A DNA stretch of 64,000 bases, taken from Roseinatronobacter alkalisoli (GTDB lineage Bacteria; Pseudomonadota; Alphaproteobacteria; Rhodobacterales; Rhodobacteraceae). Positions 24,294 to 46,574 of this stretch are shown here, one piece after another. The notes beneath the pieces are model-generated. The model saw only the letters and a program-made list of their open reading frames with translations. It was not told where the DNA came from and did not search any database. Both the position numbers and the translations under genes were made by a program. Position 1 is the stretch's first letter. Every line of letters begins with the position of its first letter. The stretch is from NCBI RefSeq assembly GCF_028745735.1, contig NZ_JAQZSM010000019.1, positions 1-64,000 of the forward strand. The letters are read 5' to 3'.

Positions 24294-24652
24294 GATGTAT
24301 CGGGCTCCTTCGACAGGTAATTTCAACAAGAGGTAGGTTGATCATGCGCCAGGTCTATTGGTGCGGGTCACAAAACCGGAACGGGTTGCGCAACATTACA
24401 TCACGCTGGCTTTCTTTTGTGGCGTTAACTGCGTTCACCGCGCACTGGCCACATGTGTGAAACGGATGCCGGACTGGTCCGGCATTTCAGGGCATCACCC
24501 CGATGTCTGCGAAATATGTTACAGTAACTATCCTTCCCGTCAATCGCATCCCCTGCCCCGGGCGTAACGGGCCTTGGCAGGCAGCACCGACGGCAGGGGC
24601 TGTTTGCTGGAACAATTCGCATAATTGCGCGTTGACTGAATGGGAGAAAGCC
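24294..24652. other. Divergent intergenic region with a 20-bp dyad
   Basis: This 359-bp region separates the betaine importer from the fatty-acid operon. It holds no credible ORF. ATGCCGGAC (24466-24474) and GTCCGGCAT (24477-24485) form a near-perfect 20-bp dyad. It could be a regulator site for either operon or an 8-bp hairpin with a CTGG loop followed by TTTC. No clear sigma70 pair stood out by eye. Confidence 0.5.
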
Positions 24653-32935: not shown

Positions 32936-34533
32936 GCATTCTCCCGCTGGTCCAGGCGCCTGATCGCATCGAGGGCCGACAATAACGACCCTTCCAACCA
33001 TGCCGGAATATGCGAACAATGTTCGCCCGCCAGCACCAGCCGGTTGTCGATTTCGCATAGCGTCTGATAATGTTCATCGCGCAGGTCTTCGGTCCATTGC
33101 CCGTAGCAGCCAAGCGACCAGTCCACCCGGTGCCATACCCAGGATGTGCCGGACATGAATTCAGCATCATATTGCGGGTGGATCTGACGACCCAGCGCAA
33201 GGGCAGCGTCGATGCGTTCCTGCGGGGTCATGGATGACCACGAATAGGTAAAGTTGCGCCCGGCCGTCGCGGTGTCATAGGCGGCCTGCAACACTGCCGG
33301 GCCATCGGACAGAAAACCGTAATTGGGATAGGCGATCTGCACCAGCGGCAGATCTGTATAGCTGATGCCACCCATGATCCAGTCGTCCTGTTCCCAGAAC
33401 CGGCGTCTGAATTCCAGGGCGACCTTGAAGGCAGAAGCATAGGGCACCGCCGCAATTGCCTTGCGCATCGCATCAGAGCAGTCGACATCCAGCTGCACAA
33501 GCACTGACAACGGGATGGTACAGATGCACCAGTCAGCACTTTCCTGCCGCACCGTGCCCCCCTGCCCGCCATCTTCATAGGTGACGGTCACGGAATTGTC
33601 GTTCTGCGCAATTCTGGTGACGCGGGCGTTCAACTGGATCACGTCGGCCACTTCGCGCGCGAATGCATCGGTGATCCTGTCCATACCGCCCACCGGTTCG
33701 AACATTGGCGGTTCGAACTGGTAGCCATTGAAATTGAACAACTGGTCCCACAGCCCCGATTGCAGCAAGGGCGACAGATCGATCGGCTGCGAAGGTGACT
33801 TTTCCGGCATCAGCCCGCCACCGGGGCGGGTATCCCAACCGCGCACATCGCCCAGATCGTCGCTGACACTAAAGCGGTAATTGCGGTCCAGAACGCCCCA
33901 CTCTTTCAGGCCCTCCAGCAGCTTTTCGCGGTCTTCAGGGCTGACAGCTTCATCCAGTTCCCCCTGACGCAGCGACTTTGCCAGCAATTCGGAAACATGG
34001 CCGCGCATATCCTTCTCGACATGCCCAATGCGCTGCGGCTGGCCGCCAAAGGCGTGCGCAGAATGCAGATAGGCCTTGTTGTTCTTGTTGATGAAGGGCT
34101 GCATCGGCACGCCCAGCCTGCGGCAATACGCAAATACCGCGCGGTGATGGACCGGCAGCCGCCACGGGCCGGGATTGAAATATCCGTCGCCCTGAAAATC
34201 ACAGCTGATCTCATGCCCGCCCATTTCGGTGTAGCGGTCGCCGCCGCGGATTGTCAGACAACGCCCGCCCTGACGGTTCTGATATTCCAGGATTTTCACC
34301 TCATACCCCGCGCGGCGCATTTCATAGGCGGCAGCCATACCAGCGATGCCCGCACCCAGAATCAGGACGCGCCGACCCTGACGCGGACCTTGCAGGTCTG
34401 GCGGACCCGTATACCCGGATTCCTGTGCAAGACCGAGGCTTGTCATCGCCTGATACATCGCCGCCGTGCCCGCGACCTGCCCGATCATTGCCAGCAATTG
34501 CCTGCGGCTTGGGTTGAAAGGTGTCATGGCCAT
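32932..34533 (-). CDS. Tat-exported flavin amine oxidase/dehydrogenase
   Basis: A 533-residue flavin monoamine oxidase-family protein. Residues 9-14 (SRRQLL) plus a following hydrophobic stretch form a twin-arginine signal, so a folded FAD protein is exported. GAGIAG (60-65) and RQGGR (87-91) bind FAD; LVLAGEHCSHIPAWLEGSLLSALDA is the C-terminal flavin motif. Substrate could be an amino acid or amine. It is sandwiched between two cytochrome c genes, with overlap to the downstream one. By analogy with nicotine oxidoreductase NicA2, which passes electrons to a cytochrome c rather than oxygen, it is probably a cytochrome-linked dehydrogenase (inference). AGGAGGG lies 8 nt before the ATG. Confidence 0.85.
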   Translation of the reverse strand: MAMTPFNPSRRQLLAMIGQVAGTAAMYQAMTSLGLAQESGYTGPPDLQGPRQGRRVLILGAGIAGMAAAYEMRRAGYEVKILEYQNRQGGRCLTIRGGDRYTEMGGHEISCDFQGDGYFNPGPWRLPVHHRAVFAYCRRLGVPMQPFINKNNKAYLHSAHAFGGQPQRIGHVEKDMRGHVSELLAKSLRQGELDEAVSPEDREKLLEGLKEWGVLDRNYRFSVSDDLGDVRGWDTRPGGGLMPEKSPSQPIDLSPLLQSGLWDQLFNFNGYQFEPPMFEPVGGMDRITDAFAREVADVIQLNARVTRIAQNDNSVTVTYEDGGQGGTVRQESADWCICTIPLSVLVQLDVDCSDAMRKAIAAVPYASAFKVALEFRRRFWEQDDWIMGGISYTDLPLVQIAYPNYGFLSDGPAVLQAAYDTATAGRNFTYSWSSMTPQERIDAALALGRQIHPQYDAEFMSGTSWVWHRVDWSLGCYGQWTEDLRDEHYQTLCEIDNRLVLAGEHCSHIPAWLEGSLLSALDAIRRLDQRENA

Positions 34534-34537
34534 GCGC

Positions 34538-35986
34538 TCAGCCCTCCTGCCGTTTGAAGCGGCGCCTGCGCGCCAACCACCAGAGTATCAGCCCCGCAAC
34601 AGCAATAATCCCGGCCAGCCCGACCCATGCCGCCATCTGAAGGACACGAAGCAGCGGGGGCATTTCTTCTTCCTGCTCCAGTACATGGGTAACATCCGCG
34701 GCGGTCAGCATACTGTCCTGCCGCCCCCCGAATGTTGCGCGGGTGTAATTGGCCAGCATGGCAATCTGTTCATGGCTCAACTCATCCGCAAAGCCAGGCA
34801 TTGCAGGGGCGCGGTACAATTTACCCGCCGGCACGCCATGCAACAGAACCTGCAGCAGATTGCCGGGATCGGCGCGGCGCAGCGCGGCGTTCTGGTCCAG
34901 CGACGGATAAAAAGCCTGTGGCTGGCCCTGCCCGGACATGCCGTGGCAGGCGGCGCAATGGCTGAGGAACAACTGCTCCGGCGTGCTCAGGTCGTCGCGG
35001 GAAAGGGCAGCCGCCATTTCCGTGCGGATTTCCCCGAAGCGATGCGTCGGCATGCCGCGCTCTTCCACGGGTGGGATGATGGGAATATCCTGACTACCTG
35101 CGGCAATTGCCGGGATGGTTTTCAGATAGGCCGCAATCGCCGCAAGGTCGTCATCATCCAGATGGCTGGTAGAGTGCTGCACAAAATCGGCCATTGGCCC
35201 GGCGGCCTGTACGATATTGTCGGCATGACCGGTGCGCAGATAATCCACAATATTCTGTTGCGTCCATTCCCCGATCCCGGTTACCGGATCGGGTGTCAGG
35301 TTCGGGGCAAGCCAGCCATCCATTTCCTCACCCGCCAAATACAGATCATCCTGCATGGCGAAGAAATCGTTGCGCGGGGTGTGACATTCACCGCAATGGC
35401 CCAGATGATCAACCAGATATGCACCGCGCTGCGAGACCGGATCATCACCGACTGCGGGCAGGTCACGACTGCCCAGAAACAGCCAGTTCCATACCATCAC
35501 CCCCGTACGTATATTGAACGGAAAGGGCAGGTCGGTTTCATGTTCGGGGGCCTCGTCCACAGGATTCTGGTCCTGCAACCAGGCATACAGCGCATCGATA
35601 TCCGCATCACGCATCCCCCGGAAGGACGCATAGGGCATGGCGGGGTAAAGGCGGCGGTCCGGGGCGACACCACGGCGCAGGACGCGCGCCAGATCATCGC
35701 GGCTGTAGTCGCCGATGCCATAGTCGCGCGATGGGCTGATATTGCTGGCAACAATCGTGCCCATGGGGGTTTCAACCTGATAGCCGCCCGACAGGTCTTC
35801 CTTGTGGCATGACATGCAGCCCGACGCCCGCGCGACATATTCCCCCCGCGCAATCTGCGCCTCTGTCTGTGCGGAGGACGTCGTCTCTGCGGCAACCGCG
35901 CTGGCCAGCATCAGTGCCGCGACCGGTGCGCAAAGGCGGGGCGGAATTCCAGAATGCATCCACAATGGGGGTGCGGTGGTCAGCAT
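34538..35986 (-). CDS. Membrane-anchored triheme cytochrome c
   Basis: A 482-residue protein with three heme sites: CMSCH at 57-61, CGECH at 198-202 and CAACH at 344-348. Each is followed by a distal Met region such as YPAMPYASFRGM and APAMPGFADEL. An N-terminal signal peptide is followed by the three domains and a C-terminal helix near 450-475 ending in basic residues. This is the architecture of the cytochrome subunit of membrane alcohol or gluconate dehydrogenases, which carry electrons to ubiquinone or oxidases. Here it accompanies an amine oxidase instead. The ATG at 35986 is behind AGGAC; ATG at 35959 would also keep the signal peptide. Confidence 0.85.
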   Translation of the reverse strand: MLTTAPPLWMHSGIPPRLCAPVAALMLASAVAAETTSSAQTEAQIARGEYVARASGCMSCHKEDLSGGYQVETPMGTIVASNISPSRDYGIGDYSRDDLARVLRRGVAPDRRLYPAMPYASFRGMRDADIDALYAWLQDQNPVDEAPEHETDLPFPFNIRTGVMVWNWLFLGSRDLPAVGDDPVSQRGAYLVDHLGHCGECHTPRNDFFAMQDDLYLAGEEMDGWLAPNLTPDPVTGIGEWTQQNIVDYLRTGHADNIVQAAGPMADFVQHSTSHLDDDDLAAIAAYLKTIPAIAAGSQDIPIIPPVEERGMPTHRFGEIRTEMAAALSRDDLSTPEQLFLSHCAACHGMSGQGQPQAFYPSLDQNAALRRADPGNLLQVLLHGVPAGKLYRAPAMPGFADELSHEQIAMLANYTRATFGGRQDSMLTAADVTHVLEQEEEMPPLLRVLQMAAWVGLAGIIAVAGLILWWLARRRRFKRQEG

Positions 35987-36124
35987 AAGACAATGTCCTG
36001 CACTAAAGTAATTCACAGACGCAGCGCTGCGCCGGGCGCGCGACCGGAAGGAAACGGCACAACGGCAGACCCCAGAAAGGCGGTCCACAGATCGACCGTT
36101 TCCTTTTCGCCAGCGCTATATATC

Positions 36125-36149
36125 AACTACGCTTTCCCGCGCGGGTTCC
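36125..36149 (-). promoter_or_regulatory. Possible EcfG-like promoter upstream of cytochrome/amine oxidase operon
   Basis: On the minus strand GGAAC-N16-AGTT, one base off the motif shared by the stress block, ends 139 nt before the ATG at 35986. The distance is long compared with the other sites, so this is a weak candidate. Confidence 0.3.
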
Positions 36150-36182
36150 ATTCCTTGCCCAGATACGATTGCAGGCCAACAA

Positions 36183-36305
36183 TCAACGATCAGCAAGGAA
36201 AGGGCACAGCCCCTTTGGCTGTGCTGCTTTTTGCCCATGGACCGACGGGGGAATGTCATCCGGTGGCGACTCATTCGGCAGACGACCAGCATTGATGACA
36301 GACAT
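36183..36305 (-). CDS. Small stress-promoter-driven ORF (40 aa) or sRNA
   Basis: A 40-residue frame starting MSVINAGRLPNESPPDDIPP and ending FLADR. It has no recognised domain and no membrane segment. Two signals support expression: AAAGGAT is placed 6 nt before the ATG at 36305, and a perfect GGAAC-N16-CGTT promoter lies 42 nt upstream. The last third of the frame contains the hairpin at 36204-36224, so the transcript could instead be a short regulatory RNA ending there. It is the outermost gene before the cytochrome operon on the same strand. Confidence 0.45.
   Translation of the reverse strand: MSVINAGRLPNESPPDDIPPSVHGQKAAQPKGLCPFLADR
36204..36224. terminator. Strong hairpin, bidirectional
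   Basis: GCACAGCC (36204-36211) and GGCTGTGC (36217-36224) form an 8-bp stem with a 5-nt loop. The plus strand continues TGCTTTTTG, the minus strand CCTTTCCTT. It could end the short minus-strand transcript starting near 36345, or shield it from antisense transcription. Confidence 0.5.
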
Positions 36306-36346
36306 GTATCTATCCTTTCGATGCATGCGGGCATTTCCATTCATCC

Positions 36347-36371
36347 AACGCCAGCAGGGACGGAATGTTCC
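36347..36371 (-). promoter_or_regulatory. EcfG-like promoter (GGAAC-N16-CGTT) for the 40-aa ORF/sRNA
   Basis: The minus strand shows GGAAC at 36371-36367, 16 bases, then CGTT at 36350-36347. This is an exact match to the motif repeated before the other stress-block genes. The ORF starts 42 nt downstream. Confidence 0.65.
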
Positions 36372-36398
36372 TGCATGCATGTGTGCGCCTGATCTTCT

Positions 36399-36590
36399 TC
36401 AGTTCTTTTGCGGTGATGCTCCCGCATCGCCCGGCGTGGTCTTGCGGGCGCTGCCTGCGGATTGTTCCCGGTCATCATTTTCATCATTCACGCGCTTCAG
36501 TGGTTGGCCGGGGCGCTGTGGCCCGCGTGGCTGCCCGGACGAGCCTGCAGTTTTCTGCGGGGTGTCGGAATTTGCATTGGGTTTGTTCAT
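36399..36590 (-). CDS. Small hydrophilic protein, probable stress protein
   Basis: A 63-residue, highly polar, low-complexity protein rich in Asn, Pro, Gln, Gly, Arg and Asp (QPRGPQRPGQPLKRVNDEND). It has no domain, helix signal or cysteine and is probably disordered. GGAG lies 6 nt before the ATG at 36590, which is the third of three consecutive ATGs. A GGAAC-N16-TGTT promoter ends 30 nt upstream, the same spacing as for the MgtC-like gene. Function unknown. Confidence 0.62.
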   Translation of the reverse strand: MNKPNANSDTPQKTAGSSGQPRGPQRPGQPLKRVNDENDDREQSAGSARKTTPGDAGASPQKN

Positions 36591-36619
36591 CATCATCTCC
36601 ATGAACCATGTAAGAAACA

Positions 36620-36644
36620 AACATGCCAAAGCGGCATTTGTTCC
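36620..36644 (-). promoter_or_regulatory. EcfG-like promoter (GGAAC-N16-TGTT) for the 63-aa protein
   Basis: On the minus strand GGAAC (36644-36640) is followed after 16 bases by TGTT (36623-36620), 30 nt before the start codon at 36590. Confidence 0.65.
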
Positions 36645-36766
36645 GTGTCATCTGCGGCAGGGGCTGTGGAGGGCGGCCATCGTAAGGGAGCTGGCCGGGA
36701 CGAGTTGAAGAACCGGTATGCACAGGCAGTAACGATACCCCCGTTGATCGTGCCCGCATCGCGGTT

Positions 36767-37237
36767 CTATTCAATCGCCTCCTCCGCGATCTTGATCAGC
36801 CGGATGATGATCAGCGCCAGTCCGGTGGCAAGGATCGCAAGCAGCCAGAACCCGAAACCTGCACCAAGACCAAGGGCAGCCGCCAGCCACAGGCTTGTCC
36901 CCGTGGTAAGGCCACGCACGCTGCCTTGCGAAAAGACGATCATTCCCGCAGCCAGAAACGCAACGCCGCTGGTCACCGCTTCAAGCAAGCGCAGCGGGTC
37001 CATAGCCAGCCCACTCGACATACCCTGCATGCGGGCCATCATTTCCAGCATGATCAGGCAATAGGCAGCAGCAGCCAGCCCCACCAGCATATGTGTACGC
37101 AAACCTGCTGGTCTGTTGCGCATTTCGCGTTCGAAACCGATCAGCCCGCTGAAAATCACTGCGCCCAGCAACCGCAGGACGATGGTTCCCAGTCCCAATT
37201 CAGTGCTGTTCCCGAATTCTGCAAGAATGCTGTTCAT
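36767..37237 (-). CDS. MgtC/SapB family membrane protein
   Basis: A 156-residue protein with about four helices. The MgtC hallmark is present: RLLGAVIFSGLIGFEREMRNRPAGLRTHMLVGLAAA, then VTSGVAFLAAGMIVF and GLTTGTSLWLAAALGLGAG. It lacks the C-terminal ACT-like domain of virulence MgtC, so it belongs to the short form. MgtC proteins aid growth under acid, Mg2+ limitation or envelope stress. The ATG at 37237 has GGCGGAAA before it; the long reading to 37630 crosses the promoter. A perfect GGAAC-N16-CGTT promoter ends 29 nt upstream. Confidence 0.85.
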   Translation of the reverse strand: MNSILAEFGNSTELGLGTIVLRLLGAVIFSGLIGFEREMRNRPAGLRTHMLVGLAAAAYCLIMLEMMARMQGMSSGLAMDPLRLLEAVTSGVAFLAAGMIVFSQGSVRGLTTGTSLWLAAALGLGAGFGFWLLAILATGLALIIIRLIKIAEEAIE

Positions 37238-37265
37238 TTTCCGCCACCATTTTTGTGCAGTTTGT

Positions 37266-37290
37266 AACGCCCCGGAAACCATGGGGTTCC
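37266..37290 (-). promoter_or_regulatory. EcfG-like promoter (GGAAC-N16-CGTT) for the MgtC-like gene
   Basis: On the minus strand GGAAC lies at 37290-37286 and CGTT at 37269-37266, separated by exactly 16 bases and 29 nt from the ATG at 37237. Confidence 0.7.
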
Positions 37291-37415
37291 AGCGCAGGAC
37301 CAGCAAACACGCGTTGGGCCACTTGTCGCCGATCACACCGCGACGACCATGGCGTGACTTGCCAGAATCGCTGCCTTGTGCTGGAATTTTCAGGGGATCA
37401 TGAAAGGATGCTGCA

Positions 37416-37643
37416 ATGAGTGACTGGGAAAACACCAGCGTAATTCCATGCGTCGGTCGCTCTGGCGAGCGGTTGACTGTGATCGAACAATGCCGGGCGG
37501 ATCGCGCCAGACAAACACTTTTCATGTCCGAACAGGACGCGCAGGCGCGGCGGTACGTGCTGGGCAACGGGTCCCAGGTAGAGCCGCTGGACCGGAACAG
37601 ATTCGTGCTGCCGGACACGCGGGAGATCATTACACGCCAGTAA
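37416..37643 (+). CDS. Hypothetical small protein (75 aa)
   Basis: A 75-residue soluble protein with no recognised domain (segments RLTVIEQCRADRARQTLFMS and ARRYVLGNGSQVEPLD). The last part, VEPLDRNRFVLPDTREIITR, looks like a folded beta-rich end typical of small uncharacterised proteobacterial proteins. AAGGATG lies 8-10 nt before the ATG at 37416. It is alone on the plus strand, divergent from the MgtC-like gene. No GGAAC-type promoter was found in front of it. Confidence 0.55.
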   Translation: MSDWENTSVIPCVGRSGERLTVIEQCRADRARQTLFMSEQDAQARRYVLGNGSQVEPLDRNRFVLPDTREIITRQ

Positions 37644-37906
37644 CGCCGCCCTCGCCCAAATTGTCCGACATCATCGCCTGTTTGACCACCCGCGCCGGTA
37701 TGTCACAAACGGCGCTGTGGCCGGGTGGCTATCCGCTTTGGCCGTGATCCGGAACGATGCGTCATGGCGCAGGCGTGGACAGGTCCAATGCACCCCATAG
37801 CCGTGGCAGGGACTCGGGATGGTTTTTCTGCAGGAACCCGACCAGCAGGGCTGAAGTGCCAGCGCTTCATAGTGCCCTTGTCATTGCTGGCATCTTCCCG
37901 CCCCGG

Positions 37907-39487
37907 TCAGATGAACATTGCCACCATCACAAGGGTCACTGCAATCAACAGGGCCGACCACATGTGATGCGATTTCCAAAATGGCTTATCCGCCAGTTCC
38001 GCCCGGTCCTTGCGCCAGTTTTCGCGGCTCCAGGTATCTTCTCCCGGTTTCAGTTCGGGTGCATCGGACCGCAGGGTGATACCCACGAAAATCCCGAGAT
38101 TCATCAGCAGCATCAGCCCCGTGCCATACAGGAACTGCAACTCGAATAGGCCCAAAGCCTCGAACAACGTGAAACAGATAATGCCAACGGGAATACCGAT
38201 GGAAAGCGTCCAGAAAGCTGCGTGCCGCGGGGGCTGGCGTCAGAACAACCCGCCCAGAAAAACCACAACCACCGGCATCGTAATATATCCCAGGAAGGAC
38301 TGGAAATACTCCACAATACCACCAAAAGAGCCGATTATTGGTGCCCAGATGGCCGCCAACACCATGAACACGCCGACAAGCACACGGCTGAGCATCAACA
38401 TCCGCGCTTCGCTCCAGTGCTTCTTGCGCGGCTTCACGAAGTCGTTGACCACCAGCGACGCGCTGCCGTTCAGAACAGAATCGACCGTGGACATCAGCGC
38501 GGCGACCAGTGCCGCCAACGCCAGTCCCCGCAGCCCTTCCGGCAGCAGAACGAACACCAGCGCGGGCCATATCTGGTCCTGATCGCCGATTTCAGGGAAA
38601 ATTTCGCGGCCCATGACACCGGGCAGAACCAGAATGAACAGGAACGGAAGCTGGAACGCGCCCGCCAGCAGCAGACCCCAGCGCCCATGATTGACATTCT
38701 TGGCGGCCAGCACTTTCTGAACCACCACCTGATTGGTCGTCCAGTAATAGAAACTCAGCCAGATCGCGCCGGTAAAGATGCCGGGCCACGGGAAGAAATC
38801 ATCATCAGCGGGTGGGGCAATGGTAAAACCACCTTCCGGCGCGGCCTGCCGCACACCTTCCCACGATCCGATCTGCCAGAAGGTCATGAAAAAGATGATT
38901 GTGCCGACAACGATAAGCAGCACACCCTGAATCGTGTCGGTGATCATCACGGCTTTCAGCCCCCCGAAGATCACATAAAGCCCGCCCAGAAAGGCGATTG
39001 CCGCGATCAGGGTCCATAATGGCATGTCCGGAAACAGCAGTTGCAGGGTCAGGGAACCGGCAAACAGTGCTCCGGCACTGTCGATCAGAATTGCGGTAAA
39101 GACCGAAAATGCCGCAAAGACCTTGCGCGCGCGCCCGTCATAACGACGTTCCAGAAACTCCGGCATGGTGCTGACCTTGGAACGCAGATAAAACGGAAGC
39201 ACGAACAGCGAGAAGAAAATCAGAACAAGCGTTGCGGTCCATTCATAGTTCCAGACAGCGATGCCATGCTCATACCCCGCCCCGGCCAGCCCCGCAAAGG
39301 ACGTGCCCGACAGGTTGGCCGACATCATCGAAATGCCGATCACCGGCCAGATCGCCCCGCGCCCCCCCAGGAAATAGCTGTTGGTGTCGCCATGTGACCG
39401 GCTTATCCAGATCCCGATGCCCATGACGATAATGATGTAAAGCGCTGCGATGGTGAAATCGGGGGTGGTAACGTCAAAGTCAGGCAT
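37907..39487 (-). pseudogene. Sodium:solute symporter (SGLT-like) interrupted by in-frame TGA
   Basis: The frame from ATG 39487 (AGGAG 9 nt upstream) encodes an SSS-family symporter: NSYFLGGRGAIWPVIGISMMSANLS-type helix 2 region, EFLERRYDG and about ten helices to PVVVVFLGGLF. Codon 416 is TGA (38242-38240). The same frame then continues without break for 110 codons (RHAAFWTLSIGIPVGI...), giving the last helices up to 37907. Relatives normally have Trp right after GLF, so TGG to TGA explains the stop. It could be a recent nonsense mutation, a sequencing error or readthrough; the remaining frame shows no other damage. It is driven by a GGAAC-N16-TGTT promoter at 39523-39547. Confidence 0.75.
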
Positions 39488-39522
39488 GATTATGAACTCC
39501 TGCAAGTAAAAACCGGGGCACT

Positions 39523-39547
39523 AACAGCCGGATGGCGAAGTTGTTCC
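39523..39547 (-). promoter_or_regulatory. EcfG-like promoter (GGAAC-N16-TGTT) for the SSS symporter
   Basis: On the minus strand GGAAC (39547-39543), 16 bases, TGTT (39526-39523), 36 nt before the ATG at 39487. Confidence 0.65.
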
Positions 39548-39660
39548 AATCAATGGGAATATCTGGCGGCGGAATGTGTCCAGACCCGCAACCGGGGTGC
39601 CCCCGTAGTCGCCCGCAGCGCCCCCCCATCCGCAAAAATTTCAGACCGCAAGATCATGTC

Positions 39661-39685
39661 GGAACATTGTGGCGGGGTGGTTGTT
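39661..39685 (+). promoter_or_regulatory. EcfG-like promoter (GGAAC-N16-TGTT) for the acidic secreted protein
   Basis: GGAAC at 39661-39665 and TGTT at 39682-39685 are separated by 16 bases; the start codon at 39736 is 51 nt downstream. Confidence 0.65.
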
Positions 39686-39735
39686 TGGGGAGGGTCCACG
39701 CCTCAACGAGGCATCACAAGACAGGAGAATGTCCA

Positions 39736-40167
39736 ATGACACCTAAATTCGCAATTCCACTTATCGTCGCTCTGGGTACGAGCACCGCGGTTATGGCGCA
39801 GGAGGCGCCTGCGGAACCTGATTCCGGTTTCGGCACGACCAATGTGCCCTTCGACTGGGATGACGAAACCCGGAGTGCCTTCTTCAGCGACCCCGAAACC
39901 GGCGGGTTGCTGAGTGATGATGAAATCACGGAAAACTGGGCCAACCTGACGCTGGAGCAGCAGGACATCGTGCTGCAGCATTGCGACGGTATCGGCACCG
40001 ATGACACCGGGTTTGATGATGCGCAGGAAGAGCCGCCTGTTGATGGCGCAGCACCGGCGACTGATGACACATTTGCCGAACCCGATATCGGCGCACCCGA
40101 CGACCTGGGGGCCACCGGGGACGACCCCGATATCGCCCATCTGTGTTCACTGATCGAAGATCAGTGA
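39736..40167 (+). CDS. Secreted acidic protein of unknown function
   Basis: A 143-residue protein with a signal peptide (MTPKFAIPLIVALGTSTAVMA before QEAPAEP). The mature part is very acidic, rich in Asp, Glu, Pro and Thr, with two cysteines (QHCDGIG and HLCSLI). It has the conserved-looking core WDDETRSAFFSDPETGGLLSDDEI and a repetitive tail. Acidic exported proteins are common in halophiles; no enzymatic motif is visible. AGGAG lies about 9 nt before the ATG at 39736. It is divergent from the symporter, each with its own GGAAC-type promoter, and is followed by a strong hairpin. Confidence 0.75.
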   Translation: MTPKFAIPLIVALGTSTAVMAQEAPAEPDSGFGTTNVPFDWDDETRSAFFSDPETGGLLSDDEITENWANLTLEQQDIVLQHCDGIGTDDTGFDDAQEEPPVDGAAPATDDTFAEPDIGAPDDLGATGDDPDIAHLCSLIEDQ

Positions 40168-40195
40168 TTCCGATCACCGGTATTTCCGGCCCGAA

Positions 40196-40223
40196 AGCCC
40201 AGGCAGAAGAACCTGCCTGGGCT
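40196..40223 (+). terminator. Strong hairpin terminator after the acidic protein gene
   Basis: AGCCCAGGCAG (40196-40206) and CTGCCTGGGCT (40213-40223) form an 11-bp perfect stem with a 6-nt loop, 28 bp after the stop codon. There is no long U-tract. Confidence 0.65.
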
Positions 40224-40264
40224 AATCCGCATGTCCAGTGCGCAACGCATGAAGGCCCCGCCCC

Positions 40265-40639
40265 ATGGCAACCCAAGATCTGATGAATGTATATTTTGAT
40301 ATCATTGCCCGGATACTGGAGATGTTGGGCGTGTCCGCCATCATCGCAGGTGCTGCGTTTGCCCTGTTCGAAGTGGTGCGCAATCTGGTCCGGGGTTGGG
40401 ACGGGCAGAAAATATTTGACCTTTTCCGTACACGGCTGGCGAAAAGCATCCTGATCGGGGTGGAGTTCCTGATTGCTGCCGATATCGTGGGCACCGTCAT
40501 TATCGAACCCTCGCTGGACAGCCTTGGTACATTGGCAATGATCGTGCTTATCCGCACCTTCCTGAGCTTCACACTGGAGGTAGAGATAGAAGGCCGCTGG
40601 CCCTGGCAACGCGGGCGCAACCGCCATGAAGATGACTGA
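40265..40639 (+). CDS. DUF1622 membrane protein
   Basis: A 124-residue protein with about three helices. FDIIARILEMLGVSAIIAG, then RTRLAKSILIGVEFLIAADIVGT and LIRTFLSFTLEVEIEGRWPW, match the DUF1622 family of small inner-membrane proteins of unknown role. The C-terminal RGRNRHEDD is cytoplasmic and charged. AAGG lies before the ATG at 40265. It follows the hairpin at 40196-40223 and no GGAAC-type promoter was found, so its transcription start is unclear. Confidence 0.8.
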   Translation: MATQDLMNVYFDIIARILEMLGVSAIIAGAAFALFEVVRNLVRGWDGQKIFDLFRTRLAKSILIGVEFLIAADIVGTVIIEPSLDSLGTLAMIVLIRTFLSFTLEVEIEGRWPWQRGRNRHEDD

Positions 40640-40767
40640 CCCACGACACTAGGAAGGCACCTATATGCGCCGGGAAACGGCCTCAGCGTAAAGGCAGGCA
40701 CCCCCGGCAGCCCTGCGCTGCGGCCTGGCAATCACCACGCGCACAAGTCGGGGGGGGGGCAGCAGGC

Positions 40768-41712
40768 TTACGCGGTGCTCAGATCACCGCGCACTGGCCT
40801 GATGGCCTGCGCTGCGCCGCGATTTGCCAGAAAGGTCGGGCGTGGCGCAGGGGCAGCAAATGGCGCGACCGGTTGGTTCGACATCGCATTATAAACAAAG
40901 AACGCATTGGACCGCGGGAAGGGTGTGACATTGCTGTTTGAGGCATGCAGCGTATTGCATTCGAAAAAGACCACAGTGCCCGCTGGCCCGGTCGCAGCAT
41001 CCAGCCCGGCATCCCCCGCAAGCTTTTCAAGCACCACATTTGACGGAACGCCAACCTCTTGGCGCTTCAGGCTTGTCTTGTGGTTGGCCGCCGGGGTTTC
41101 CCCCTGACAGGCGATGAAATGCCGGTGCGAACCGGGGATCAGCATCAGCGGCCCGTTCAGCGCGCTGTTATCGGTCAGCAGGATCGAGGCCGACACTGCA
41201 CGCATGCGTGGCATGCCATCCTCTGCGTGCCAGGTTTCGAAATCCGAATGCCAGTAAAATTCTTTCCCGATAAAGCCGGGTTTGTAGTTCAGGCGGCTCT
41301 GATGCAGATAAACCTCGTCGTCCAGCAGGAAACGCGCCACATCGGCAATCCGTGTGTCAGCCGCCAGTCTGGCAAAAAGCGGGCTGTGTTCATCCAGCCG
41401 GAAAATAGTGCGCACCGCGTCTGCGCCGGGTTCCGTCACCAGATCCTCGGTGCGGATATCCTGCCCGTTGGCGCGCAACCGCGCCGAGGCCGCAATCAGC
41501 CGGTCAATTTCGTCGTCACTGAACAAACCCTTGCAGACCAGATACCCGTTGCTTTCATACGCCTGCGCCTGCGCTTGTGTGATTGGCGCGCTTGCGGTCC
41601 AGTCCCGCCACAATATCGGGTCTTTGCGCGGCACAAGACATTCGCGGTCCTTCTGCCGGGTGGGATAGGAATCCATCGCGGTAAACTGACTGGTTCGGTG
41701 GGTGATGTTCAT
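40768..41712 (-). CDS. ectD: Ectoine hydroxylase
   Basis: A 314-residue non-heme iron, 2-oxoglutarate-dependent dioxygenase. The EctD signature FYWHSDFETWHAEDGMPRMRA spans about 153-171 and gives the HxD iron ligands His155 and Asp157; the distal His256 is in NTLHASNSN. It converts ectoine to 5-hydroxyectoine, an osmo- and thermoprotectant. No ectABC genes are in the window, so the substrate is imported or made elsewhere. AGGAGG lies 8 nt before the ATG at 41712. A weaker GGAAC-N17-GGTT sequence (41786-41811) lies 74 nt upstream. Confidence 0.92.
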   Translation of the reverse strand: MNITHRTSQFTAMDSYPTRQKDRECLVPRKDPILWRDWTASAPITQAQAQAYESNGYLVCKGLFSDDEIDRLIAASARLRANGQDIRTEDLVTEPGADAVRTIFRLDEHSPLFARLAADTRIADVARFLLDDEVYLHQSRLNYKPGFIGKEFYWHSDFETWHAEDGMPRMRAVSASILLTDNSALNGPLMLIPGSHRHFIACQGETPAANHKTSLKRQEVGVPSNVVLEKLAGDAGLDAATGPAGTVVFFECNTLHASNSNVTPFPRSNAFFVYNAMSNQPVAPFAAPAPRPTFLANRGAAQAIRPVRGDLSTA

Positions 41713-41785
41713 CGAAATAACCTCCTCTCTCTGTCAGGTCTTTCTTCTCTGTGCGCCTGCCAAATACGCAGACGCGCACAGCCAT

Positions 41786-41811
41786 AACCGCCGATATACG
41801 GGCGGGGTTCC
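41786..41811 (-). promoter_or_regulatory. Possible EcfG-like promoter for ectD (GGAAC-N17-GGTT)
   Basis: On the minus strand GGAAC (41811-41807) is followed after 17 bases by GGTT (41789-41786). Spacer and -10 each deviate slightly from the block consensus, so it is tentative. Confidence 0.4.
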
Positions 41812-41868
41812 AAATCCTGTTGCGGATCATTCGCCCCGGCATTGGAACCCGGCGCAGCCCGAAGGGCC

Positions 41869-41893
41869 GGAACAATCTGCGTTCCCGCGTGTT
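41869..41893 (+). promoter_or_regulatory. EcfG-like promoter (GGAAC-N16-TGTT) for the Cys-rich protein operon
   Basis: GGAAC at 41869-41873 and TGTT at 41890-41893 with a 16-base spacer, 32 nt before the ATG at 41925. Confidence 0.68.
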
Positions 41894-41924
41894 CGAATAA
41901 TGCATGCCAGAAAGGAGAGGAGCG

Positions 41925-42137
41925 ATGGCCAGATGCGCACAATGCGGAAACGACTATGCGCATTCCTTCGAAGTCACGATTGCCGGGGCAAGTTACAGCT
42001 TCGACAGTTTCGAATGTGCAATCCATAAGCTCGCCCCCGAATGCGGCCATTGCGGCTGCAAGGTTGTGGGGCATGGCACGGACAAAGCAGGCGTCACCTA
42101 TTGCTGCGACCATTGCGCGCAACACGGGTCAGCCTGA
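41925..42137 (+). CDS. Cysteine-rich small metal-binding (zinc-ribbon-like) protein
   Basis: A 70-residue protein with eight cysteines: CAQC near the start, then FECAIH, ECGHCGC and YCCDHCAQH with adjacent histidines. The spacing suggests two zinc sites, like a zinc ribbon or a bacterial metallothionein-like fold, but it is not a recognised SmtA. Possible roles are metal buffering or redox protection. A very strong AAAGGAGAGGAG precedes the ATG at 41925, and a GGAAC-N16-TGTT promoter lies 32 nt upstream. The next gene starts 19 bp after its stop. Confidence 0.72.
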   Translation: MARCAQCGNDYAHSFEVTIAGASYSFDSFECAIHKLAPECGHCGCKVVGHGTDKAGVTYCCDHCAQHGSA

Positions 42138-42155
42138 CAATGAAGGAGGACAACT

Positions 42156-42554
42156 ATGCCGGAACATGACCACAGGAAAGACACTGCAGATGCGCTTCGT
42201 CACGATCTTGACGCGGGCCGCGGCCGCGACAAGACCAGCGCGCCGGACCCCGCTGCCGCGCCCCTGGGCACTGATGACGAAGCGGCAGGAACCCCGATCA
42301 GCCCGGAACAGGCCAGTCGCGCGCGCGACAGGGAAATTCACGCCGCAGGCCCCGCTCCCGGCGTCATCCCGCCTGCGATGACCAATGTCGCCGGGTCGGG
42401 CAACGCAGCACCCGACCGCCGCGAAACCGTTTTCCCTACAGATATGCCGCCCACGAAACCCGGTACATCCGGAAGGGCCATAAGATGGGTGATCGGCGTG
42501 TTTGTGGCAGTCGTCGTCCTATGGCTTCTGCTTGGGCTATTCGGACAGTCCTGA
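42156..42554 (+). CDS. Hypothetical C-terminally membrane-anchored protein
   Basis: A 132-residue protein. The first hundred residues are hydrophilic and look disordered (many Asp, Arg, Ala, Pro, including ISPEQASRARDREIHAAGP). One membrane helix at the end (about 107-128, IRWVIGVFVAVVVLWLLLGLF) makes it a tail-anchored protein with the soluble part probably in the cytoplasm. AAGGAGG is ideally placed before the ATG at 42156. It is likely co-transcribed with the Cys-rich protein from the same stress-type promoter. Function unknown. Confidence 0.7.
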   Translation: MPEHDHRKDTADALRHDLDAGRGRDKTSAPDPAAAPLGTDDEAAGTPISPEQASRARDREIHAAGPAPGVIPPAMTNVAGSGNAAPDRRETVFPTDMPPTKPGTSGRAIRWVIGVFVAVVVLWLLLGLFGQS

Positions 42555-42641
42555 AAACGGCGCTGGCCGGGTTCTGCCGCTGAGCACTGAGAACGGCATT
42601 CCCCCAGGCTTCTTTTTCCACCCTTGAAACAGGAGGCGCGC

Positions 42642-42950
42642 ATGCCACGCGGTGACAAATCCAGATATACCGACAAGCAGAAACGCAAGGCCGAACACAT
42701 TGCCGAAGGCTACAAGGAGCGCGGCGTAGACACGAAAGAGGCCGAGAAACGCGCCTGGGCGACGGTCAACAAGGATGATGGCGGCGGCAACAAAAGCGGG
42801 GCGGGCCGCGGCACGCATACCGGGAACCCCGCAGCAAAGAAAGGCGGCAGGAAAGGTGGTGAAGCCGCAGCCGCGCGCCCGGCAGAAGAACGCGCGGAAT
42901 CGGCCCGCAAGGCCGCTGAAACACGCAAGCAGAACAAAGGGGATGGGTAA
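42642..42950 (+). CDS. Small basic protein, 'plasmid stabilisation protein'-like
   Basis: A 102-residue, very basic, Ala/Lys/Gly-rich protein. The N-terminal KRKAEHIAEGYKERGVDTKEAEKRAWATVNKDDGGG is a conserved motif in short proteins often labelled plasmid stabilisation proteins. The C-terminal half is low-complexity KKGGRKGGEAAAARPAEERAE and may bind nucleic acid. AGGAGG precedes the ATG at 42642. It sits 87 bp after the tail-anchored protein gene on the same strand. There is no plasmid evidence here; a stress/DNA-protection role is more likely given the neighbours (inference). Confidence 0.72.
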   Translation: MPRGDKSRYTDKQKRKAEHIAEGYKERGVDTKEAEKRAWATVNKDDGGGNKSGAGRGTHTGNPAAKKGGRKGGEAAAARPAEERAESARKAAETRKQNKGDG

Positions 42951-43054
42951 TCCCCCCTGCGCCCGCCGGTGTGCAAGCGTGTTCGCAGGCCGGGCCGCTC
43001 GCAATCCGGGTACAGGCGTTACAACCCGGTACGGCCCGCGACACCCGCCGCGCT

Positions 43055-44125
43055 TCAGATCATCGGCTTCCCACCAGTGACCGCGATTGTGGCGCCTGAC
43101 ACATAGCTGGAAGCGGCTTCCGCCAGCATGACATAGGCCGAGGCCAGTTCAACCGGCTGCGCAGGGCGTTTCATCGGGTAATTGGCACCGAACTGCGCAA
43201 CCGTTTCGCCGGGAAAGCTGCCGGGGATAAGCGGCGTCCAGACGGGACCGGGCGCCACGCAGTTCACACGGATCCCCTTGTCAGCCAGCATCTGCGCCAG
43301 CCCTGCGGTGAAATTCTGGATTGCGCCCTTGGTGGTTGCATAGGCCAGCAGGCTGGGATTAGGCATATCCGAATTGACCGATGCAGTATTGATGATCGAC
43401 GCGCCCTTGCCCATCTGGCCGACCGCTGCCTTGGAAAGGTAGAACATGGAATGAATGTTGATCGCGAATGTGCGCTCCCATTCCTCATCCGGGATATCAT
43501 CAAGTTCCCCGAAACTCTGCTGATGAGCGGCATTGTTGACCAGAATATCCAGTCGCCCGAATTCGGCGGCCACGGTTTCAACAATATAGCGGCAGTGTTT
43601 CGGGTCGGATATGTCACCGGGCAACAACAGGCATCGTTGGCCGCAGGCCTCAATATGACGGGCCGTGTCCTTCGCGTCCTCGGTTTCTTCCAGAAACGAG
43701 ATCGCGACATCGGCACCTTCGCGCGCATATGCAATGGCCACAGCCCGCCCGATACCACTGTCCCCCCCGGTGACAAGGGCAGATGCGCCGCGCAAGCGCC
43801 CATGCCCCACCCATGTTTCCTCGCCATGGTCAGGGCGTGGGTCCATCTGTGTGAAGGTTCCCGGTAGCTGCTGCGTCTGTTCCGGGAAGGGGGGATGGGG
43901 GAAGTGCTCCGGATGCCAGCCCGGATCCGTCTGTGGTGCGGCCCCGGTGCCGGGCTGTTTCATGGTATTGCCAGCGCCCGCGTTCATATCCGTGCGATGG
44001 TGGCCCGCCGGATCAATCTGTTGCTGACGCTGATCAATCACGCGGGGGTCTGCGCGACGCAGGGCTTCGTTCGCGGGGGGTGTGTCCTGCACATCGGGCG
44101 CGGTGGGGTTTTTCGGTAAGGTCAT
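43055..44125 (-). CDS. Long SDR oxidoreductase (YghA/YdaD-type general stress protein)
   Basis: A 356-residue SDR with an N-terminal extension of about 110 residues that is Pro/Gln/Asp rich and contains PFPEQTQQLPGTFTQMDPRPDHGEETWVG, diagnostic of the YghA/YdaD/YhxC group. The catalytic part has TGGDSGIGRA, NNAAHQ, NTASVNS and YATTKGA. Relatives are induced by general, salt or oxidative stress, with unknown physiological substrate. GGGAG is upstream of the ATG at 44125. A GGAAC-N16-TGTT promoter ends 35 nt before it, back to back with the promoter for the plus-strand neighbour. Confidence 0.88.
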   Translation of the reverse strand: MTLPKNPTAPDVQDTPPANEALRRADPRVIDQRQQQIDPAGHHRTDMNAGAGNTMKQPGTGAAPQTDPGWHPEHFPHPPFPEQTQQLPGTFTQMDPRPDHGEETWVGHGRLRGASALVTGGDSGIGRAVAIAYAREGADVAISFLEETEDAKDTARHIEACGQRCLLLPGDISDPKHCRYIVETVAAEFGRLDILVNNAAHQQSFGELDDIPDEEWERTFAINIHSMFYLSKAAVGQMGKGASIINTASVNSDMPNPSLLAYATTKGAIQNFTAGLAQMLADKGIRVNCVAPGPVWTPLIPGSFPGETVAQFGANYPMKRPAQPVELASAYVMLAEAASSYVSGATIAVTGGKPMI

Positions 44126-44159
44126 TTCGCAAGCTCCCTTTTACAACTGCTACCCACCC

Positions 44160-44184
44160 AACATGTGGCTGGCGCTATTGTTCC
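44160..44184 (-). promoter_or_regulatory. EcfG-like promoter (GGAAC-N16-TGTT) for the stress SDR
   Basis: On the minus strand GGAAC (44184-44180), 16 bases, TGTT (44163-44160), 35 nt before the ATG at 44125. Confidence 0.68.
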
Positions 44185-44221
44185 GCAGGCAAGGCTTTCC
44201 GGACCGCACCACACATGCAGG

Positions 44222-44246
44222 GGAACAACCGCCCGCCCAAAGCGTT
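44222..44246 (+). promoter_or_regulatory. EcfG-like promoter (GGAAC-N16-CGTT) for the 71-aa protein
   Basis: GGAAC at 44222-44226 and CGTT at 44243-44246, exact consensus with a 16-base spacer, 56 nt before the ATG at 44302. Confidence 0.7.
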
Positions 44247-44265
44247 CAAGTAGCGGAACAGGTAA

Positions 44266-44517
<252 letters not shown>

Positions 44518-44751
44518 ATGATCGCGTTCCGGCAGGGGGGCATGCCCTGATACCGGGTCAAGCGCGCTGCGAGCTCCGTCAGGCGTTGATCACCCGGGAC
44601 GACAGCGGGAACGAAGGCAAACATGTAATGGGTGAACTGGTTGGTCGCGCGCAACTGCTTTTTGTCTGGAAACTGCGCGGCACACGCTTGGCAAGCGTTG
44701 ACGGCGCAACATCCGGGGCCAGCCATCACATACCCTTGCAAGTTGCAAATG

Positions 44752-44783
44752 GCCGTGGCGGGGGTTCGGGCCACCGCCACGGC
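44752..44783 (-). terminator. Hairpin downstream of the PRC-barrel remnant
   Basis: GCCGTGGCGG (44752-44761) and CCGCCACGGC (44774-44783) make a 10-bp perfect stem with a 12-nt loop, 8 bp beyond the PRC-barrel stop. CCTTGCA and TGCAAGG flank it and can extend the structure. It probably was the terminator of the PRC gene. The rest of 44518-44791 shows no gene. Confidence 0.5.
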
Positions 44784-44791
44784 TGCAAGGG

Positions 44792-45052
44792 TTAAACGCC
44801 CAATGGCAGCCCGTAATGGCCGTGAACCCGGCGGTCGTATTCAGGGTCGACCCAGGGGTCTTCGTCACGCGCGAAACTCGGGCCGCCTTCAAGCTGTTCA
44901 CGCGGGATATTGACGACATATCCGCCAAGAGCGGTATCGTAATCCAGCGTATCCCATGGCAGCGGGTGGTAGCGTTCCCCGATGCCCAGGAACCCGCCAA
45001 AGGACATCACGGCATAGGACACGCGGCCCGAATGTCCTTCCGGGCCGCTGAT
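44792..45052 (-). pseudogene. PRC-barrel domain protein, 5'-truncated remnant
   Basis: The minus-strand frame ending at 44792 encodes SGRVSYAVMSFGGFLGIGERYHPLPW and then DYDTALGGYVVNI plus EQLEGGPSF, the recognisable C-terminal two-thirds of a PRC-barrel stress protein. The first strands that should precede SGRV are missing: upstream of about 45052 the sequence becomes the 3' end of the aldehyde dehydrogenase gene. An ATG at 45088 inside that gene could start a 98-residue hybrid, but it would lack the barrel's N-terminus. The break marks a recombination junction between the stress block and the sugar-acid operon. Confidence 0.65.
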
Positions 45053-45065
45053 GCGCGGATCATTG

Positions 45066-46574
45066 TCACGCAACGGGCAATAATGCATCGGGCAGGTTCT
45101 GGTAGCACACCGGCCGCAGGAACCGGCGGATGGACAAGGTGCCCACCGATGTTGCGCCGAAATTGGTTGATGCCGGATAAGGACCGCCATGGACCATGCT
45201 ATCGGCCACTTCAACCCCGGTGGGGAAACCATTGGCCAGAACGCGTCCTGCTTTGCGTTCCAGCACCGGCAACAGGCGCTGGCCCAGTTCAGTGTCCTCT
45301 GCGTCCAGATGCAGGGTGCAGGTCAACTGGCCTCGCAGGGCATGCGCAAATTCCAGCATCTGATCTGCGTTCCGCGCGCGGATGATCAGGCCCAACGGAC
45401 CGAAAACCTCTTCGCCAAGTGCATGATTGGCCAGCCAGAATTCCGCTGTGGTTTCAAACAGATATGGCGTGGCGTTGCGCAAATCACAACTTGTTTTCAG
45501 CAGGGTCTGCACGCCTGCGGTTGCCGCCACCCGGTCGCGCCCGGCGCGGTAGGCCCCCGCCATGCCGTCGGTCAGCATGGTCTGGGGGGCAACGCCTTGC
45601 AGCGCTTCTGTTGCTGTTGCCGCGAACTGATCGGCCTGCGGACCATCCAGCAGAACCGCAATGCCAGGATTGGTGCAGAACTGCCCCGCGCCCATGGTCA
45701 GGCTGGCGGCCCAGCCTTTGGCGATGTCACCGCCGCGCGCATCCAGCGCCTGTGGCAGGATGAACATGGGATTCACACTGCCCAGTTCGCCGAAAAACGG
45801 GATCGGTTCGGGGCGTGCCGCACACAGGTCAAACAGCGCCCGCCCCCCGGTCAGCGAGCCGGTGAACCCCACGGCCCTGATCAGCGGATGGGTGACCAGC
45901 GCCTCGCCCACATCGCGCTTGCCACCCTGAATCAGGGAAAACACGCCCGGATGCAGCCCGCAGGCTTTCGCCGCCGCCGTGATTGCATCGCCGACCAGTT
46001 CGCCCGTGCCGGGATGGGCGGAATGGCCCTTGACCACAACCGGGCAGCCTGCCGCAAGGGCCGCCGCTGTGTCACCCCCACCCACTGAGAATGCCAGCGG
46101 AAAGTTTGATGCCCCGAACACGGCAACAGGACCGATGGGGCGCTGCATCATGCGCAATTCCGGGCGTGGCAGCGGCTGGCGGTCGGGCAGCGCCGGATCA
46201 TGGCGGCTATCAAGATAGTCACCCTTGCGGATGTGTTCAGCGAACAGGCGCAACTGGCCGGTCGTGCGCCCGCGTTCGCCCACCAGCCGCGCATCCGGCA
46301 GGCCGGTTTCCTGCGCGCCGATTTCGGTAATCGCATCGCCACGCGCGTCAATTTCATCTGCGATGGTGTCAAGAAATCTGGCGCGATCATTGCGCGAGCT
46401 ATAGCCATAGGACCAGAACGCGGCTTCCGCAGCTTCACAAGCGCGCGCGACCAGATCCGGCGTGCCGACGGAAAATTCATGCGGGTGACCATGCGCCGGA
46501 CTGGACGGAAAACGCGCGGCGCCTGCCACCTGTTCGCCCGCGATCAGGTGCTTGCCGTGGGGGGTATGGGTCAT
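45066..46574 (-). CDS. 2,5-dioxovalerate (alpha-ketoglutarate semialdehyde) dehydrogenase-like ALDH
   Basis: A 502-residue aldehyde dehydrogenase. FGASNFPLAFSVGGGDTAAALAAGCPVVVKGHSAHPGTGELV is typical of the NADP-type ketoglutarate semialdehyde dehydrogenases (KGSADH). FFGELGSVNP holds the general base Glu and GAGQFCTNPG the nucleophilic Cys. It would oxidise 2-oxoglutarate semialdehyde to 2-oxoglutarate, the last step of aldonate degradation whose earlier enzymes are encoded just upstream. The ATG at 46574 with AAAGG before it is preferred to a longer frame from 46610, which overlaps the RraA-like gene. Its 3' end abuts the PRC-barrel remnant. Confidence 0.87.
   Translation of the reverse strand: MTHTPHGKHLIAGEQVAGAARFPSSPAHGHPHEFSVGTPDLVARACEAAEAAFWSYGYSSRNDRARFLDTIADEIDARGDAITEIGAQETGLPDARLVGERGRTTGQLRLFAEHIRKGDYLDSRHDPALPDRQPLPRPELRMMQRPIGPVAVFGASNFPLAFSVGGGDTAAALAAGCPVVVKGHSAHPGTGELVGDAITAAAKACGLHPGVFSLIQGGKRDVGEALVTHPLIRAVGFTGSLTGGRALFDLCAARPEPIPFFGELGSVNPMFILPQALDARGGDIAKGWAASLTMGAGQFCTNPGIAVLLDGPQADQFAATATEALQGVAPQTMLTDGMAGAYRAGRDRVAATAGVQTLLKTSCDLRNATPYLFETTAEFWLANHALGEEVFGPLGLIIRARNADQMLEFAHALRGQLTCTLHLDAEDTELGQRLLPVLERKAGRVLANGFPTGVEVADSMVHGGPYPASTNFGATSVGTLSIRRFLRPVCYQNLPDALLPVA

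Follow-up and report, generated by a model that had tools for sequence, protein, structure and literature searches.

Why does one short promoter-like motif recur eight times within 8 kb of alphaproteobacterial DNA, and which sigma factor would read it? The question is raised by positions 36347-44246 of a 64,000-nucleotide stretch of Roseinatronobacter alkalisoli (contig NZ_JAQZSM010000019.1, positions 1 to 64,000; hereafter the window), where the original prediction, made from the letters of the DNA, described an array of GGAAC-N16-YGTT promoters and took it for a clustered stress regulon of the sigma factor EcfG. We regard it as very likely, judging from sequence, that the array represents a regulon island belonging to the general stress response of Alphaproteobacteria. 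The array itself is real and largely expected, a compact accessory island that by all that could be tested belongs to the known EcfG system, and what goes beyond the routine is a stress-type site in front of the ectoine hydroxylase gene ectD and, outside the window, a core promoter with two interlocked opposite sites.

Under stress, a kinase of the HWE/HisKA_2 type would phosphorylate PhyR, phosphorylated PhyR would take NepR off EcfG, and RNA polymerase carrying EcfG would then start at 8-10 separate promoters in 36125-44246, each for one gene or short operon. The proposed units are an open reading frame (ORF) of 40 amino acids (aa), a disordered protein, an MgtC-family protein, a symporter, an acidic protein together with a DUF1622 protein, ectD, a Cys-rich protein with two followers, and a 71-aa protein, and a cytochrome operon is possibly a further one. 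We infer that the sites are used by EcfG or by one of the two EcfG paralogues of this genome, and the operon limits, the inducing signal and the functions of the products are proposed on the same footing.

The array and its conservation in the genus

A pattern search on both strands of the window finds nine exact GGAAC-N16-YGTT sites, and eight of them fall in 36347-44246, exactly on the coordinates and strands that had been predicted. The chance level was taken from 100 dinucleotide-preserving shuffles of the window, which hold 0.75 sites on average and 4 at most, none reaching 9, and this bears out the earlier estimate of about one match by chance. All eight sites are correctly oriented, as had been claimed, and the distances from the -10 box to the start codon are 28, 29, 31, 34, 35, 41, 50 and 55 nucleotides (nt), against a range of 29-56 nt given before. 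A clear Shine-Dalgarno-like stretch was seen by eye at seven of the eight starts, that of mgtC being weak, and the base before GTT is C in three sites and T in five. Under a looser pattern, with no constraint on the base before GTT and a spacer of 16 or 17, the region 33000-46000 has 10 sites, and 200 order-1 shuffles of it average 0.61 and never exceed 5. Out of the 4.84 Mb of the genome, the 7.9 kb of the array contain 8 of the 90 exact matches, against an expectation of 0.15 (binomial P 3.5e-12, uncorrected for the selection of this stretch from about 1,200 half-overlapping ones).

The array was compared by BLAST with 37 genomes of the genus. Two of them, G229 and G232, have most of it. A third, G231, has only the symporter, and the remaining rows are short weak matches. 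Matches of tblastn to the array genes number 10 in the stretch taken from G229 (L071) and 9 in that from G232 (L072), where the tenth gene, for the disordered protein, was recognised by eye as a look-alike; the stretch of G231 is L073. For the seven genes compared (disordered, symporter, acidic, ectD, Cys-rich, SDR and 71-aa protein) the form GGAAC-N16/17-NGTT is kept in 14 of 15 orthologous upstream regions, that is in 7/7 of G229, 6/7 of G232 and 1/1 of G231 (the symporter), and the sole miss is the SDR gene of G232, which reads GATT at 33 nt.

The distances from site to start agree within 2-4 nt for five genes of the window, G229 and G232. In that order they are 35, 35 and 36 nt for the symporter (32 nt in G231), 50, 48 and 49 nt for the acidic protein, 31 nt in all three for the Cys-rich protein, 34, 32-33 and 33 nt for the SDR, and 55, 55 and 56 nt for the 71-aa protein. 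The last has exact sites in both relatives; the acidic and Cys-rich genes of G232 and the SDR gene of G229 read GGTT. The disordered protein has its site at 29 nt in the window, at 23 nt (N16) in G229 and at 32 nt (N17) in G232, there before the look-alike gene (L072:2563-). Over 24 ortholog pairs, 190 of 192 box cells are identical, and in the 19 pairs of equal spacing 167 of 326 spacer bases; without the closest genome pair the boxes agree in 94/96 and the spacers in 79/206. Comparable stretches of 12-13 kb in the window genome, G229 and G232 have 10 sites each, and their shuffles 0.61, 0.53 and 0.45.

Control genes, distribution and rival explanations

A genome search for ecfG, nepR and phyR, proposed earlier as a check, finds phyR, nepR and an ecfG-like gene in one locus together with a kinase gene, on a different contig (C98) from the array; since they are present, the objection that the genome might have no EcfG or PhyR homologue falls away. 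NepR has a single match in the genome (C98:30390; PF18557, 38.4 bits against a cut-off of 25.7), and phyR adjoins nepR on the opposite strand. The 264-aa product of phyR matches PhyR_sigma2, PhyR_sigma-like and Response_reg over the cut-off (PF22029, PF22233, PF00072), and among its nearest solved chains are 9by5 (3.2e-95 over residues 3-263), 3n0r (1.3e-70) and 4qic. The start of the EcfG-like sigma gene (L045:6516-7091) overlaps the stop codon of nepR, which points to an operon of the two; its regions 2 and 4 are matched, its nearest solved chain is 5uxx (1.7e-46), and it misses its best NCBIfam model, the sigma equivalog NF009198, by 7 bits (263.2 vs 270). The kinase of 593 aa exceeds the cut-offs of HisKA_2 (78.1 bits) and HWE_HK (29.3 bits) and stays below that of the PhyK equivalog (211 vs 750). 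EcfG-type sites face both nepR and phyR, and the promoter of nepR-ecfG has the same boxes as the array. The genome has 13 matches to sigma-70 region 2. Two more EcfG-like sigma genes, at C37:97135 and C76:242707, are 52% and 41% identical to the core sigma and match the PhyR_sigma2 model in region 2, and their contig stretches hold 3 EcfG-type sites on C37 and 4 on C76.

That the EcfG-type system is not universal in Rhodobacterales was stated from the beginning and is right for the family sampled. Among 198 genomes of the family, one per genus except for two of the own genus, NepR is found in 89 (87 over the cut-off), and among the 37 genus genomes in 19 (16 over the cut-off); since the model is short, with 35 positions, it may have overlooked some NepR. 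Of the 197 other family genomes, 12 have an orthologue of the array SDR (E<=1e-80), and all 12 are NepR-positive (hypergeometric P 4e-5). A KGG-like protein of the array is found in two other family genomes, again both NepR-positive. No second dense array appears in ten 18-kb family stretches round SDR or KGG-like matches, which have 0-4 sites each, the rest of those genomes being unread.

Published EcfG consensus sequences, in the excerpts on which all our citations are based, are GGAAC-N16-17-C/GGTT (PMC12148442; C or G before GTT also in PMC4814048), GGAAC-N16-CGTT in Rhizobium etli (PMC3892343) and GGAAC-N17-20-GTT in Sphingomonas melonis (PMC6599016), and together with the control genes and the sites kept in relatives they support the assignment of the motif to EcfG. 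As far as the excerpts go, the EcfG/PhyR/NepR regulons of S. melonis, R. etli, Methylobacterium extorquens and Sinorhizobium meliloti (RpoE2) are like the array in promoter boxes and spacing, have phyR usually divergent from nepR-ecfG with a HWE/HisKA2 kinase close by, and have among their targets numerous small unknown proteins besides a PRC-barrel gene; a PRC-barrel gene stands in a table of EcfG-controlled genes of S. melonis (PMC6599016). Unlike these, the genome studied here has 8-10 target promoters within 8 kb, away from the core locus, with ectD and a symporter among the targets. In Rhodobacter sphaeroides (RSP_1274-1272), which belongs to the same taxonomic order, phyR likewise stands opposite a NepR-like/EcfG-like pair, but its PhyR is reported mainly in membrane stress, and the excerpt describes no wide target set like that of the array (PMC5830050). 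The authors of that study knew in 2018 of no other such study in the order (PMC5830050). With so specialised a role there, PhyR-NepR-EcfG may or may not be a true general stress response in Rhodobacterales, and the predicted targets of the array form a compact set on which this could be tested in a further lineage of the family.

Several observations weigh against reading the array as a regulon island of the general stress response. Counted over all 4.84 Mb of the genome, the motif is not in excess, with 90 exact matches vs 122 for the reversed pattern; matches outside the array are thus mostly chance, and the array is distinct by its density. A strict promoter filter (start codon with a Shine-Dalgarno stretch, outside a long ORF), by which 89 of the 90 exact sites were classified, passes 12 of 89 vs 3% of 6,000 random places, and 4 of these 12 are in the array, whose other 4 sites are dropped. 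T before GTT in five of the eight array sites is outside the narrow C/G consensus (PMC12148442), but within the S. melonis form (PMC6599016). The array is present in 3/37 genus genomes although NepR is in 19/37, and is therefore accessory. A relaxed search finds the motif upstream of only 9 of 14 family SDR matches, five at 26-35 nt from a possible start, and no site upstream of the other five. The promoters of the 40-aa ORF and of mgtC are predicted from the motif only, and tblastn finds no counterpart of mgtC in the stretches taken from G229 and G232. The agreement of boxes between relatives is partly circular, because the boxes were found by looking for them; the mostly kept distances with drifting spacers are independent of this circularity. 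Finally, PhyR of R. sphaeroides is reported to be without a major role in general stress (PMC5830050).

How far, then, do these points favour other explanations? A coincidence of a short GC-rich motif, with only a few of the sites being promoters, would agree with the missing genome-wide excess and with the single site or so expected in the window, but the shuffles, the clustering, the orientation, the start distances and the conservation in relatives make it highly implausible. It is improbable, if somewhat less so, that the sites are read by another group of extracytoplasmic function (ECF) sigma factors with a GGAAC -35 box: Escherichia coli RpoE is given with GGAACTT (PMC8103513), and the 13 region 2 matches of the genome would leave room for such a factor, but a GTT -10 box at a spacing of 16-17 is the EcfG consensus in the literature excerpts, and the SDR is linked to NepR-positive genomes. 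A real though minor chance has to be given to one of the two paralogous sigmas as the main user, which would make the array a subset regulon and not the core response. Their relatedness to EcfG, the PhyR_sigma2 match in region 2 and the several sites on the same contig stretches speak for it, as do the excerpts on split EcfG regulons in R. etli (PMC3892343) and on EcfG paralogues in Sphingopyxis (PMC7083833), but the core nepR-ecfG promoter has the same boxes, and the occurrence of the array SDR in the family goes with that of NepR. The reading that we prefer is still that of an island served by the general stress response.

The interlocked core promoter

The divergent orientation of phyR and nepR-ecfG, and the transcription of both by EcfG, are already known (PMC4814048, PMC8103513). 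The site directed at nepR moreover overlaps an opposite site, displaced by 7 bp, in four genomes: the own one, G201, G229 and G232. The own element is at L045:6220-6252 (C98:30219-30251), and G201, whose phyR lies some 1 kb away from the interlock, fits less neatly. A strict pattern, GGAACNNAACN{12,13}GTTN{2,3}GTTCC, is found in 47 of the 198 family genomes; all 47 belong to the 89 NepR-positive ones, and the 109 others lack it (P 1e-20, the own genome not counted). Its reversed control is found in 1 genome. One NepR locus was read for each of the 89 genomes, the set being 90 stretches minus two duplicates, with the own locus added, and second NepR matches of some genomes being left out. At 85 loci both phyR and ecfG are in the stretch, divergent in all 85, and 68 of the 85, in genomes of different genera, have overlapping opposite sites that span 31-33 bp with an offset that is always 6, 7 or 8 bp, in a search that allowed a wider range. 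Of the 17 loci without overlap, about 11 by our reading still have the element apart from one or two substitutions; in the others it is lost or only one side remains. L240 and L265, in whose stretches phyR was not found, have a single nepR-directed site, which is expected if the other face serves phyR; no clear site was seen in L260 (phyR not found) or L259 (phyR present, contig ending before ecfG). Ten of the 34 plasmid records with a PhyR match were examined, and the interlock is present in Dinoroseobacter shibae and Roseicitreum antarcticum, nearly so in Ketogulonicigenium vulgare, and absent from the record of Roseobacter litoralis.

In Sinorhizobium meliloti Ak57 (L288) the divergent operons rsiA1-rpoE2 and rsiB1 each have an EcfG-type site, as in Rhodobacteraceae, but there the two sites stand back-to-back without overlap, whereas most Rhodobacteraceae loci read are interlocked. 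Two sites that stand back-to-back and do not overlap are seen in Methylobacterium bullatum too, but that stretch has no match for nepR or ecfG; Sphingomonas parapaucimobilis has one site, the stretches of Shinella and a second S. meliloti record have none, and that of Azospirillum has none near phyR.

The typical form of the interlock is GGAACC-A-AACGC-N8-GCGTT-T-GGTTCC, in which each -10 box lies 1-3 bp inside the -35 box of the other site. A binding site for a dimeric regulator fits less well than two overlapping promoters, because the middle is not self-complementary (0.33, against 0.88 in the outer ten bases). We lean slightly towards the view that in most Rhodobacteraceae with the system one two-faced promoter drives the switch, with the nepR-ecfG and phyR arms made alternately and in a controlled ratio. 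One EcfG-RNA polymerase could then serve only one face at a time; transcription would switch between the positive and the negative arm, and how strong each face is relative to the other would set the ratio of the arms, as a ratio control built into the partner-switching system. If so, the balance of sigma factor, anti-sigma factor and antagonist would become testable by point mutations in an element of about 32 bp. No description of an in-register overlap of the phyR and nepR-ecfG promoters was found in the excerpts and listings of open-licence papers that were searched, and one may be in print.

Another kind of two-way promoter was considered and rejected. Palindromes with an offset of 2, GGAACR-N15-YGTTCC, seen in G229 and G232 near the gene for the 71-aa protein and in G231 near that for the symporter, looked as if they were designed to work in both directions. 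They occur in 114 of the 198 family genomes, in 55/89 NepR-positive ones vs 59/109 others (Fisher P 0.31), and in most rows the reversed control is at least as frequent; they are rejected as a feature.

ectD, the other array genes and further candidates

The ectoine hydroxylase gene ectD (40768-41712, minus strand; TIGR02408, 356.6 bits, above the cut-off of 336.5) has one of the two weaker variants that had been predicted, and that do exist, as its site: GGAAC-N17-GGTT at 41786-41811 on the minus strand, 73 nt before the start. In G229 the same boxes stand at 85 nt, and in G232 GGAAC-N17-TGTT at 71 nt; ectD (E<=1e-60) is found in 3/37 genus genomes, those that have the array. The genes ectABC are elsewhere, with ectC at C120 beside ORFs placed and sized as ectA and ectB, and no EcfG-type site precedes them on the sense strand, the only match in 7.5 kb being antisense inside the ectA-like ORF. 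From the site before ectD we infer that EcfG may control ectoine hydroxylation, and since ectABC are without such a site, the step from ectoine to hydroxyectoine would be the one under stress control. This offers a mechanism for the rise of hydroxyectoine at entry into stationary phase that an excerpt reports for some microorganisms (PMC5924519). Stress sigma factors over ectoine functions are likewise reported for Streptomyces avermitilis, with sigma-8 on ectABCD (PMC5402319), and for Virgibacillus, with SigB on ectT (PMC5924519), but those belong to other sigma families, and here only the hydroxylase gene, split from ectABC, has the site.

The other variant, GGAAC-N16-AGTT (36125-36149, minus strand), is a weak EcfG-like site before a multihaem cytochrome c gene that flanks the array (34538-36088, minus strand, start uncertain, recognised from the ORF list by its CxxCH motifs); in G232 a look-alike gene is preceded by an exact site, at 104 nt from a possible start. 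The remaining putative promoters are exact matches. On the minus strand, the site at 36347-36371 stands 41 nt before the 40-aa ORF (36183-36305), which has a ribosome-binding-site-like stretch before its ATG; the site at 36620-36644 precedes the disordered 63-aa protein (36399-36590, no Pfam family matched), and that at 37266-37290 the MgtC-family membrane protein (36767-37237; Pfam MgtC, 1.3e-30). In Ketogulonicigenium an MgtC/SapB gene lies beside ecfG. The sodium:solute symporter (38240-39487, minus strand; Pfam SSF, 5.4e-55; TIGR00813 over the cut-off) has its site at 39523-39547 on the same strand, and the acidic protein with a signal-like N-terminus (39736-40167, plus strand, no Pfam family matched) at 39661-39685 on the plus strand, with the DUF1622 membrane protein (40265-40639, plus strand; Pfam, 7.1e-22) behind it.

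The plus-strand site at 41869-41893 would serve the Cys-rich 70-aa protein (41925-42137) and probably the two genes behind it on the same strand, for a 132-aa protein with a C-terminal membrane-type helix (42156-42554) and a basic KGG-like protein of 102 aa (42642-42950); neither has an EcfG motif within 170 nt upstream, for the KGG-like gene in 3/3 genus genomes. A search with the Cys-rich protein gave only 3 loci; the homologue of Plastoroseomonas has an exact site about 110-140 nt upstream, and that of Mycolicibacterium agri none in the stretch scanned. The latter (L087:8001-8210, 57%) is in an actinobacterial record, which may reflect transfer or a mixed assembly. At the end of the array a minus-strand site (44160-44184) precedes the SDR-family oxidoreductase with a long N-terminal extension (43055-44125, minus strand; Pfam adh_short_C2, 6e-58), and a plus-strand site (44222-44246) the 71-aa protein (44302-44517, plus strand, no Pfam family matched). 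Pfam thus agrees with the labels MgtC, SDR and symporter given earlier, but YghA-type is a loose name for the SDR, which reaches SDR Pfam models and stays below the cut-offs of all 25 NCBIfam models shown (PRK07985, 305.5 vs 538; PRK06701, 384.3 vs 413). The ninth exact site of the window (24609-24633, plus strand) is 19 nt before a 754-aa ORF resembling acyl-CoA dehydrogenase, and about one such match is expected by chance.

Outside the array eight sites pass the strict filter. Those identified stand before genes for CsbD, YkuD and PRC-barrel proteins and before a short ORF in front of exoD; the others precede an unscanned gene, a small unknown one, and genes resembling those of a thiamine enzyme and a ferric reductase. 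Inspection also shows sites before Cu/Zn superoxide dismutase, DUF1328 and PLDc_N genes, the dismutase gene (L046:7569-8075) having an exact EcfG-type site 35 nt upstream. The CsbD, ExoD, Cu/Zn superoxide dismutase, PRC-barrel and DUF1328 genes would fit a general stress response, but most of the genome-wide matches are chance. The EcfG-type site before exoD is kept in three genomes (L046:6625-, L071:3993+, L072:12705-), and about 33-35 nt on is the short ORF, which by eye starts alike in all three with MLC(P/L)E and could possibly be a leader peptide or part of a leader RNA. In G229 and G232 exoD adjoins the array, and in the own genome the SDR promoter and the first SDR codons are copied beside exoD (L046:5401-5425, C76:235400; 87% over 122 bp), a trace of rearrangement of the island.

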